Positions 28,332 through 31,129 of a stretch of 64,000 nucleotides of DNA are shown in pieces. Position numbers and translations under genes: made by a program. The notes under the pieces were generated by a model, which worked only from the letters and a program-made list of their open reading frames with translations, made no database searches and had not been told where the DNA came from. The stretch comes from Flavobacteriaceae bacterium GF1. GTDB taxonomy: Bacteria; Bacteroidota; Bacteroidia; Flavobacteriales; Flavobacteriaceae. Positions within the stretch are counted from its first letter, which is position 1. Each line of letters opens with the position of its first letter. The stretch spans positions 248,001 to 312,000 of the forward strand of contig WNKP01000004.1 of NCBI GenBank assembly GCA_009797885.1. The letters run 5' to 3'.

Positions 28332-28564
28332 GCTATTGAGATGACCGATACAATTGCCACGCTCAATACAACTATTATCCATTGCATAACCTTTTCTTCC
28401 CTATTGGCTTTCATGTAAACGAAAATACTAGTTGAAGCTCGTCTAAATTATTAATTTTTAATAAGATACTGAATGATGAAAATGTTCCTCACCTTTCGGT
28501 AAATAAAGGAAAGCTCAGATTAGTGTTCCATAGCTTTGCCAGGCTCCAATAAAATTCGCTGGCC

Positions 28565-28887
28565 CTAGTACACCCAATATGATTCGATACCCAAGAATTC
28601 AAGACCAACTTCAGGGGTTTTCATTTTAAGGCTATTTTTAAGTCCCCTAACCAATTCGTTTTTTAAGCATTCGACTACTTCCGAAGTCTTCGTCCCATCA
28701 ATCCCAATACTGCCTATCAACATGGCTTTTTATTGTTTTTCAATGAATAACCTGAAAGAAATAGTACGGTGACACATCTGGAGGGGGCACCAGTCACTTT
28801 ACAATGGAAATCGGTAACTCTTTTTGCCGCAGCTTGTTTTTGTTCCGTTGTTGGCTTGTCTTTCGTCAATGTGATATATACCGGCAT
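28565..28887 (-). pseudogene. Frameshifted tautomerase-superfamily gene
   Basis: Starts at ATG 28887 with MPVYITLTKDK and TDFHCKVTGAPSRCVTVLF, the N-terminal half of a 4-oxalocrotonate/MSAD-type tautomerase with the catalytic Pro directly after Met. The frame then ends in NNKKPC and a stop. In another frame the expected second half continues: MLIGSIGIDGTKTSEVVECL, LKMKTPEVGLEFLGIESYW, stop at 28565. One frameshift plus one TAA in the joined frame inactivate it. It lies 10 bp downstream of another broken gene. Confidence 0.75.
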
Positions 28888-28897
28888 AACAGAGGTT

Positions 28898-29337
28898 TCA
28901 AAATGATGAATCAAAAGCGAAATACTCCTTTCGGGTCTTGTTGAAAGCAAGATTGGACAATATATGGAAGTAGAATTTTACTTTGCCCAAGCCCGTCAAC
29001 TGTTGACTGACCCTTCTTAGGAAGGCTTCGAAAATGGGCTGTTCCAGAATGGCGATGACCAAATCATCCGGATGCTGACCAGTGATGGCCAACTAATCCT
29101 CCGAACAATTTTCGAACATCTGTACCCTTTTTCTTGATCAAAACCCACTTCAGAGCCCATGCTTATTATGGAAGGTTGTTTTTGCTGGTAATCTTCATGG
29201 CAATCCCCCTTGGGGACTTGGTTCCATAGTACTCGAGCATTCTCCTGGGAGATATGGTTTCTATAGTGCTGTTGAAGGATATGTTTAAGACTCCTGATCT
29301 GAGAATCAGTGAACTGGTTTTTTCCGATTGTAATCAA
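28898..29337 (-). pseudogene. Frameshifted gene upstream of the tautomerase remnant (possibly tautomerase-like)
   Basis: ATG 29337 opens MITIGKNQFTDSQIRSLK ... ARVLWNQVPKGD ... GSEVGFDQEK. At the A/G run after QEK one missing base shifts the frame; in the restored frame the text runs RVQMFENCSED, a TAG where a Trp would fit, then LAITGQHPDDLVIAILEQ and on to 28898. The ITGQHPDDLVI word resembles the late helix/strand of tautomerase-superfamily proteins, but the family call is uncertain. A conserved palindrome and TAACTTGC box lie just upstream (29372-29417). Confidence 0.65.
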
Positions 29338-29371
29338 TATAACCTACATAACACTTTCCTATAAAACAGGG

Positions 29372-29379
29372 GCAAGTTA
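29372..29379 (-). promoter_or_regulatory. Candidate promoter box TAACTTGC for the decayed gene pair
   Basis: Minus-strand TAACTTGC whose first base (29379) is 29.5 bp from the centre of the palindrome at 29400-29417. The identical box at the identical distance follows the other palindrome (30211-30230). It resembles the TAnnTTTG -7 element with one change. Confidence 0.5.
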
Positions 29380-29399
29380 GACAGGGCTCGGATGGAAGG

Positions 29400-29417
29400 T
29401 TTTACCTTAGGGTAAAA
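29400..29417. promoter_or_regulatory. Palindromic operator, copy 1 (probable Crp/Fnr-family site)
   Basis: TTTTACCTTAGGGTAAAA, an 18-bp near-perfect palindrome 5 bp beyond the stop of the Crp/Fnr gene and 63 bp upstream of the broken gene at 29337. Copy 2 at 30211-30230 is perfect. Crp/Fnr proteins bind palindromes of about this length as dimers. Confidence 0.65.
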
Positions 29418-29422
29418 AAGAG

Positions 29423-29989
29423 TCAGGAAATCAATTTTCTTCTGATCCTACTTAAACTTTGTATGGTAATCCCCAAATATGAGGCAATATAGGAGAGTTT
29501 GGTCCTATGAAAAATATTTGGATGATGCCTGATCAGTTGTAAATAACGGTACTCCGCGGATTCGGTATGGATACTCATTATCCTCCTGCTCAACTGTATG
29601 GTGTAATCCACTATAAGTTTTCTAAATACTACATCAAACCCAGGAACATTTTTGGAAGCTGCCTCTAAGTGCTCATGGGTGATCAATAATAGTTTGCAGT
29701 CCTCAAGCGCCTCAAAGTTCAGGATGTTCTCATTGCCATTGAAAAAACTGTCGGGAGAGGTAATCATCGTATCCTGGGAGCTGAACCAATGGGTAACCTC
29801 ATGCCCATCACGGTCATAGTAGAATATACGCATGAGTCCCTCGATGATATAGTAGAAGTAGTCACATTTTTGTCCTTGTTTAAGAAATACCCCACCCTTT
29901 TTCACTTCCGCTCCATCAATTTTTAAGTCCAACCTATCAGACCATTTGTAGATATCCTGGAGGGCAATGTATTTATCGGTCTGCACCAT
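29423..29989 (-). CDS. Crp/Fnr family transcriptional regulator
   Basis: 188 residues. The N-terminal cyclic-nucleotide-binding-like barrel (about 20-135: GGVFLKQGQKCDYFYYIIEGLM, split here for length; RIFYYDRDGHEVTHWF) lacks an FNR-type cysteine cluster at the N-terminus. The C-terminal HTH is short, with RTKLSYIASYLGITIQSLSRIRR as recognition region. Ligand unknown. The gene is flanked by two copies of one palindrome at 29400-29417 and 30211-30230 that face outward toward other genes, which are its probable targets. Confidence 0.88.
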   Translation of the reverse strand: MVQTDKYIALQDIYKWSDRLDLKIDGAEVKKGGVFLKQGQKCDYFYYIIEGLMRIFYYDRDGHEVTHWFSSQDTMITSPDSFFNGNENILNFEALEDCKLLLITHEHLEAASKNVPGFDVVFRKLIVDYTIQLSRRIMSIHTESAEYRYLQLIRHHPNIFHRTKLSYIASYLGITIQSLSRIRRKLIS

Positions 29990-30210
29990 TTTACCTTTTC
30001 CTTATTGGATAGGATATAAAGATACTTAATGGTCTTCTTACAGTGCATCATAAACCGCGTTGTTGAGCTTAAAATCCACAAAACCCATTTTATACAAAAC
30101 CCGTCTTTTACGAATTTGGATTCAACGGGTAAATCGGTTGGTCATATCGGGCCATGGAACGCTTCAATGCCATTATGTTTTTTATGTAAAAAAATCGTAG
30201 TTACCGTGTT

Positions 30211-30230
30211 TTTTTACCCTAGGGTAAAAA
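30211..30230. promoter_or_regulatory. Palindromic operator, copy 2 (probable Crp/Fnr-family site)
   Basis: TTTTTACCCTAGGGTAAAAA, a perfect 20-bp palindrome 72 bp before the universal stress gene. Its centre (30220.5) is 29.5 bp from the first base of TAACTTGC at 30250. If transcription starts about 6 bp after that box, the site is centred near -41.5, the class II activator position of Crp/Fnr proteins. Confidence 0.7.
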
Positions 30231-30249
30231 ATTTGATTTTTATCCGAAA

Positions 30250-30257
30250 TAACTTGC
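30250..30257 (+). promoter_or_regulatory. Candidate promoter box TAACTTGC of the universal stress gene
   Basis: Same eight bases and same spacing from the palindrome as at 29372-29379 on the other strand. The start codon follows at 30302. Confidence 0.5.
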
Positions 30258-30301
30258 ATTCGAGAGTTACAGCCGATTGATAACCCTAAAAATATGTAGC
30301 C

Positions 30302-31129
30302 ATGAAAATTTTAGTCCCCTTTGATTTTTCCCAAGAATCCATAAACGCTCTTAAACTGGGCAAGGAAATGTCAACCAAACTGAAACTGGACTTAAAAGTG
30401 ATCCACTCATTAGGTATATCAGATTACCCCTATTACAAAACAGAAGAGGCCGATCGTTTAAAGGAAATTGTTTTAACCAATGCCAAATCCGAAATGAGAA
30501 AGATCCTGAAAGGGTTTTTTATTGATCCCAATGCCATTGAATTGGAGATTGCGGATAGCAAGGCTTCACCCCACATCATTCGTACTTCCCGAGAAAGGGA
30601 AATCATATTTACCGTCCTTGGGCGAAAAGACCAGCACATTCCCGACAGGATTGGATCCACTACCCGCGATATTATCCGTTATGCCAATAATTCAGTGATA
30701 AGCATTTCCAAAGAGCTTCAATTTGACACACTTAAGGATATCCTTTTTGTTACTGATTTTGAACCTACCCCAGTCAACGCGCTGTCGACCGTTAAAATGA
30801 TCCAAAGGGCGAACAATGCAACCCTTAAACTTCTTTATGTGAACACCAGGGAAAATTGGCAATCTACTTCGGAAACTAAAAATAGGATGGAGGAATTCTG
30901 TAAGTTACATGGATTGGCCAATGCCGATTTGGAAATCATCAATGATGATAGTCTTGAAAAGGGCGTTTTGAACCATATAAAAAGTGCACCGGTAGACCTT
31001 ATTGCCATAAGAATAAACAGCTCTTATGGAAAACTGGACATCATGGATACACATCTTAGTGCTGAGCGAATTATGGACCATTCCGAAACACCTATTTTGA
31101 CCTACTCAAAAGACCGGTATTTAGGATAA
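30302..31129 (+). CDS. Tandem-domain universal stress protein (UspA family)
   Basis: 275 residues, cytoplasmic, with two Usp domains: about 1-140 (MKILVPFDFSQESINALKLG) and about 145-275 (LKDILFVTDFEPTPVNALSTV). The glycine-rich ATP loop GxxGxS is poorly kept (domain 1 has LGRKDQHIPDRIGSTTRD), so nucleotide binding is uncertain. It has a dedicated promoter with a candidate Crp/Fnr operator. In Bacteroidota such proteins are often induced under low oxygen or stress. Confidence 0.92.
   Translation: MKILVPFDFSQESINALKLGKEMSTKLKLDLKVIHSLGISDYPYYKTEEADRLKEIVLTNAKSEMRKILKGFFIDPNAIELEIADSKASPHIIRTSREREIIFTVLGRKDQHIPDRIGSTTRDIIRYANNSVISISKELQFDTLKDILFVTDFEPTPVNALSTVKMIQRANNATLKLLYVNTRENWQSTSETKNRMEEFCKLHGLANADLEIINDDSLEKGVLNHIKSAPVDLIAIRINSSYGKLDIMDTHLSAERIMDHSETPILTYSKDRYLG

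Follow-up and report, generated by a model that had tools for sequence, protein, structure and literature searches.

Outward-facing candidate class II promoters around a Crp/Fnr-type gene, and operator half-sites that follow recognition-helix residue 181 among its Bacteroidota paralogues

Two operator-like palindromes, each followed at a fixed distance by the same promoter-like octamer, flank a gene for a Crp/Fnr-type regulator in the window (the whole 64-kb stretch of DNA analysed here, from a marine flavobacterium). What binds them, and to what effect? The window letters bear out the preliminary description in its palindromes, octamers, 29.5-bp spacing and outward orientation (Table 1). The left dyad lies just past the end of the regulator gene and the right dyad upstream of it. 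On both sides, 20 bp separate the end of the 18-mer from the octamer, and 29.5 bp separate the dyad centre from the octamer start. Two details needed correction. The right palindrome is indeed perfect but spans 22 bp, not 20 bp at 30211-30230. The modules, described as identical, are so in octamer and spacing, but their dyads differ at one central base and their 20-bp spacers are unrelated. The search of the genome and its relatives that had been proposed returned the window pair as the only two exact modules of the own genome, and the arrangement recurs in two genomes of the same genus (G002 and G007), which share dyads, spacing and octamers.

We consider it highly probable that the adjacent Crp/Fnr-type protein uses the dyads as its operators, that this protein activates the outward promoters in class II manner, and that a glutamine largely sets the TTACC half-site. 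Both dyads would be bound by the protein encoded between them. On either side, a dimer at -41.5 would activate a promoter that carries a TAnnTTGY box. The right promoter would serve a universal stress protein gene, and the left would once have served a pair comprising an unknown-family gene and a tautomerase-like gene, now decayed. The glutamine, which lies in the recognition helix, is given this role because paralogues with other residues show the same layout with other half-sites.

Table 1. Features of the regulator locus in window coordinates
Feature	Position	Strand	Description
Crp/Fnr-type regulator	29423..29989	-	188 aa; Pfam cNMP_binding; helix GITIQSLSRIR
Universal stress protein (Usp) gene	30302..31129	+	275 aa; predicted target
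Decayed target	28536..29367	-	remains of unknown-family gene and tautomerase-like gene; open as two frames in G002 and G007
Left operator	29400-29417	-	dyad TTTTACCTTAGGGTAAAA in + reading; centre predicted at -41.5 of the broken gene pair
Right operator	30212-30229 (18-mer core); 30210-30231 (perfect palindrome, 22 bp)	+	core TTTTACCCTAGGGTAAAA; centre predicted at -41.5 of the universal stress gene
Left promoter box	29372-29379	-	TAACTTGC; predicted +1 at 29367
Right promoter box	30250-30257	+	TAACTTGC; fits TAnnTTGY (SM5-type); predicted +1 at 30262

The modules did not arise by chance, as judged by the genome dyad scan, the spacing counts and the window expectation, and the earlier view that chance was unlikely stands. 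In the window, the dyad gives four strand-matches at three or fewer mismatches against 0.43 expected. The octamer TAACTTGC alone is unremarkable there (two matches against 1.69 expected) and, its frequency being at chance level, was rejected as evidence by itself. The own genome, 5.28 Mb in 62 contigs, contains no site with fewer than three mismatches besides the two known dyads. A pattern joining the dyad to the box at the fixed distance gave 12 matches there, the two exact ones being the window modules. The ten one-mismatch matches, of which L275 and the place of L276 (the same as L007, seen earlier) were examined, fall far short of the 50 given by a reversed-pattern control, and further strict sites in this genome were rejected. 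For the window crp gene itself, a class II promoter of the same design was likewise rejected: the crp side of 29990-30240 holds no accepted octamer form.

The regulator belongs to the Crp/Fnr family without being an FNR proper. Its N-terminal part is a cyclic-nucleotide-binding-like domain (PF00027, 45.8 bits against a cut-off of 27.5). Its C-terminal part is a Crp-type HTH whose helix aligns with those of paralogues and with the C-terminus of 3dn7; no Pfam HTH model scored above its own cut-off. The structure 3dn7, a cyclic nucleotide binding regulatory protein of 194 aa, matches regulator residues 28-188 (E 1.7e-16) and is the only solved chain to match at E <=0.001. Its helix, GFTPEYLSEIR, is of the type that accompanies TTAAG sites here, unlike the window helix.

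FNR class II promoters carry TTGAT-N4-ATCAA at -41.5. That box also appears in the available part of a comparative study of the family (PMC1274295). The window operator reads TTACC-N4-GGTAA, so the earlier statement that the motif is not the classical Fnr box was right about the half-site, TTACC standing in place of TTGAT, yet the 5-N4-5 frame is FNR's own. The two also share the protein family, the Ser-Arg that follows the variable residue and, as predicted here, the distance from the start. They differ in the half-site and in the glutamine, which we take to occupy the place of Glu181 in CRP and Glu209 in Fnr. They differ further in the promoter, a TAnnTTTG/TAnnTTGY-type box rather than a sigma-70 -10 element, and in cysteines: the translation holds only two, too few for the four-Cys [4Fe-4S] site of FNR proper.

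The dyads are predicted to fall at the position of a class II activator. That activators act from -41.5 is a rule known from proteobacteria. In F. psychrophilum, according to the available part of the source, measured 5' ends show that boxes of the forms TAnnTTTG and TAnnTTGY lie at -12 to -5 (PMC9723704). By this rule, taken from a different genus than that of the window organism, the first T of each box lies at -12, so both dyad centres are predicted at -41.5 and the starts at the positions in Table 1, in agreement with the position near -41.5 and the starts that the preliminary description had guessed. Orthologues keep the same distance both with TAnnTTTG-like boxes (GAATTTTG, CAACTTTG and TAATTTTG) and with TAACTTGC or TACCTTGC, and these last two fit the SM5 promoters (TAnnTTGY) of the same source (PMC9723704). 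The available text of that paper ties SM5 promoters to LPS, amino-acid scavenging and gliding genes and names no Crp/Fnr activator for them, the words Crp and Fnr being absent from its main text (PMC9723704), whereas here TAnnTTGY boxes have a Crp/Fnr dyad just as far away as TAnnTTTG boxes do. This suggests that the -41.5 rule also holds with the divergent Bacteroidota promoter.

The arrangement is conserved among orthologues, distant ones included. Thirteen were taken from genome contigs, and 12 are assessable, L056 stopping at a contig edge. A box with four or fewer mismatches lies within about 135 bp past the crp stop in 11 of the 12; L049 has its nearest one about 610 bp off. Behind each box, 20 bp on, comes an octamer that resembles a promoter, a poor one in three cases (GAATTTTA in L049, TAACATTG in L051 and TACTTTCG in L053). 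A wider search of 397 genomes with the dyad pattern gave 24 matches, spread over 19 of them, where the reversed pattern gave 17, and most of the 24 may be chance. Among the 19 genomes, G000, G024, G170, G228, G249 and G320 were examined. The match sits beside a Gln-type Crp gene in G000, G024, G170 and one of two cases in G320, and within a gene in G228; G249 has three boxes and no Crp gene within the sequence pieces examined. Near dyad matches in G005, G009, G011 and G016 have no TAACTTGC, the only box sought there, in their loci.

Relatives reveal what the decayed target may have been. In G002 and G007, whose regulators are 94% identical to that of the window, three modules stand before usp, before the open gene pair and before an SDR gene, the third reading TTTTACCATAGGGTAAAT-N20-TACCTTGC. 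An ALDH gene lies behind this SDR gene in L016 and in L044 (on the same contig as G007's). The window matches these loci at about 91% DNA identity up to 28536. Beyond that point the tautomerase-like gene is missing its final part, neither the third box nor the SDR-ALDH genes are present, and through this loss of homology the gene pair is reduced to short frames. Position 28536 is thus a homology break, and the genes past it differ from those of G002 and G007. The closest SDR elsewhere in the own genome is 55% identical, and its locus has no box. One separate observation concerns a conserved protein beside the tautomerase-like gene (L045:6897-7433), which matches no Pfam or NCBIfam model.

The proposal of a small regulon with one decayed target gains support from the open gene pair behind the left-type module in G002 and G007 and from the third module before the SDR gene. 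Targets behind orthologue boxes comprise SDR-ALDH genes, an alpha/beta hydrolase gene (with DoxX in L052 and L054) and the same gene pair; in L049 the box precedes a DUF308 gene and then an ABC1-kinase gene. Because the SDR-aldehyde dehydrogenase operon is the commonest of these targets, the regulon probably serves a response to aldehydes or electrophiles, to judge from gene content.

A fixed gene-operator-promoter layout extends across the wider family. Some Bacteroidota genomes are rich in Crp/Fnr paralogues, with up to 20 matches per genome. Our set of Crp genes, 125 distinct ones in all, was drawn from the loci numbered up to L206 and comprises orthologues, similarity and pattern matches, and further regions; the profile that gathered many of them was rich in Gln-types. 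With no half-site assumed, 28 of the 125 are followed by a perfect 5-N4-5 dyad whose octamer stands at spacing 20, compared with 3 among the 416 other frames that reach 150 aa in loci L023-L206 (Fisher p 2.9e-16). Spacing 21 accounts for eight cases and every remaining spacing from 8 to 35 for at most three. The crp stop comes first, then a dyad in the FNR frame and, exactly 20 bp on, the promoter box. TTACC-N4-GGTAA, at one mismatch or fewer and within 400 bp after the stop, follows 16 of 30 Gln-type genes, none of 75 Glu-types and none of 20 others. The window gene and L070 entered the set because of their box; leaving them out gives 14/28 for TTACC after Gln-types and 26/123 for spacing 20. 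Upstream of crp, too, dyads at one mismatch or fewer occur within 500 bp, with counts of five for Gln, two for Glu and one each for Ser, Ile and His.

The half-site varies with one residue of the recognition helix. Residues 181 and 185 are known for their contact roles in DNA recognition by this family. At the place that we take to be equivalent to CRP position 181, the 125 genes have Glu in 75, Gln in 30, Thr in 6, Ser in 5, Asn in 3, Arg in 2, and Val, Lys, Ile and His in one each. Gln goes with TTACC, Asn with CTACC, Ser, Thr or His with TTG[CT]C, and Glu with half-sites of the form xxxA.

This association comes from the 45 genes that have an operator call at spacing 20; the other 80 include 55 of the 75 Glu-types. 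All 15 Gln calls have TTACC half-sites or TTATC/TTAAC halves, both Asn calls CTACC and the His call TTGCC. Four Ser and two Thr calls have TTGTC or TTGCC (one half being CTGTC), and one odd Thr call has TTGGT. Among the 20 Glu calls, TTGAT, TTGAC or ATGAT occur with S/T/N-LSR, TTGAA or TTAAT mostly with EF or EH and Lys, and TTAAG with EYLSE; three (L038, L122 and L174) look spurious. Half-site position 5 is A in 17/17 Gln or Asn calls and G in 8/8 Ser, Thr or His calls, and position 4 is A in both halves of 19/20 Glu calls compared with 1/25 others. Helices of the form G-I/V-T/K-x-QSLSR have a site in 20 of 20 cases: 16 at one mismatch or fewer, three variants at spacing 20 (L047, L118 and L119) and L049, where it lies farther away. 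The remaining 10 of the 30 Gln-types (GIAPQ, GIEPQ, GIERQ, QALS, QFLSK) have no downstream TTACC dyad at one mismatch or fewer.

Pattern searches returned the same correlation between residue 181 and operator bases. Four half-site patterns, all derived from the discovery set, led to 76 examined sites, of which 51 lie near a Crp gene and 25 have none found. Fifty of the 51 have the expected residue and one has Tyr. These 51 sites represent 48 Crp genes (L242, L262 and L266 hold two each), five belong to discovery-set genes (L214, L216, L221, L240 and L246), and many are close relatives, with many matches from few genera. TTACC gave five matches in 395 genomes of the class, 5/5 with Gln, four directly behind a Gln-type Crp gene and one (G780) about 1.2 kb off. 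CTACC gave nine in 296 genomes of the order, six directly behind an Asn-type. TTG[CT]C gave 105 matches in 296 genomes; 51 were examined (30 loci by default and 18 chosen by hand), and 33 of these have a Crp gene with Ser (20), Thr (11), His (1) or Tyr (1), a residue not met at this place before. TTAAG gave 11 in 236 genomes, seven directly behind a Glu-type whose residue four places further along is Tyr or His; the helices EYLSY (4), EHLSY (2) and EFLSH (1) are a wider set than the EYLSE expected. Reversed-pattern controls gave 2 matches against 5 for TTACC, 4 against 9 for CTACC, 14 against 105 for TTG[CT]C and 16 against 11 for TTAAG, whose match number is not in excess. Since raw numbers clearly exceed the control only for TTG[CT]C, the argument rests on Crp adjacency and not on match number.

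The same residue principle was published for other members of the family. Rodionov et al. (2005) correlated residues 180/181 of CRP/FNR proteins with operator bases G3/A6 (PMC1274295), so the present work extends a known principle. As given in the available part of that study, C. jejuni NssR, with Gln181, has the motif TTAACnnnnGTTAA, in agreement with A5 and C3 of the present sites, and HcpR2 of P. gingivalis, a member of the Bacteroidota also with Gln181, has its own motif (PMC1274295). That part of the study centres on HcpR, DNR and NnrR (PMC1274295), whereas our set consists of many short Bacteroidota paralogues. It adds the half-sites TTACC, CTACC, TTG[CT]C, TTGAA, TTAAT and TTAAG, together with the fixed gene-operator-promoter layout.

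The association could still reflect common descent only, residue 181 specifying no bases. Residue class changes only seven times on a tree of the 45 genes built without the helix columns, related sequences are not independent, and the pattern matches, too, are concentrated in few genera. An independent-pairs test of amide residues against A5 found two well supported pairs, both concordant among non-Glu rows, which is not significant. Yet Gln accompanies TTA-n-C in three separate clades of that tree. L064 (Gln, TTACC) falls inside an SH-aLRT 100 clade with three Ser-types (TTGTC/TTGCC), from which it can differ by a single helix residue (GITQQSLSRIR and GITQSSLSRIR), and position 181 touches DNA in CRP, as noted in the available part of the 2005 study (PMC1274295). 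We regard descent as the whole explanation as unlikely.

Two further readings concern the dyads themselves. The adjacent protein might bind them and repress, blocking RNA polymerase at the -35 region; the -33 element lies under a dimer at -41.5 and would be covered by it. A blocking mode would, however, tolerate other positions, whereas the 20-bp spacing is fixed across many paralogues with unrelated spacers, as expected for contact with polymerase, and repression therefore strikes us as quite improbable. That the palindromes are terminator- or repeat-like DNA retained for other reasons is hardly credible: inverted repeats do lie next to gene ends here, but only two occur in the genome, their spacing to the promoter box is fixed, and the half-site varies with the neighbouring regulator.

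Activation by the adjacent protein, with a half-site largely set by residue 181, would have consequences beyond this locus. It seems reasonably likely that short Crp/Fnr paralogues of Bacteroidota form a standard cassette of regulator, operator at -41.5 and target operon, that residue 181 and the residue four places on predict the half-site, that local regulons can be read from the genome, and that one activator position serves both TAnnTTTG and TAnnTTGY promoters. If so, the layout and the residue-to-half-site table would predict an operator, a promoter and a target operon for each paralogue, and sequence could serve to assign targets to unknown regulators. Natural sister pairs differing in one helix residue make the evolution of specificity testable. 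The open-access literature searched, with 'crp fnr' terms that may miss 'Crp/Fnr', yielded no Bacteroidota cassette at a fixed -41.5, no such half-site table and no Crp/Fnr dyad paired with TAnnTTGY boxes.

Variants of the arrangement occur in other genomes. In G024 a crp-SDR cassette is present in two copies (L094 and L095), each with the same pair of dyads; one dyad lies upstream of crp, where autoregulation is possible. In G320 a single dyad (L091:4903) is flanked by boxes in both directions, each 20 bp away, and stands between divergent DUF308-like and ABC1-kinase-like genes named by eye. In G249, one dyad (L090:5060) stands before a TolC-HlyD-ABC efflux-like operon, divergent from nrfHA-like (multi-haem cytochrome) genes, again named by eye. 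In the same genome, a shortened universal-stress-like frame of 104 aa (L089:344-658) lies behind a module and is perhaps a second decayed target.
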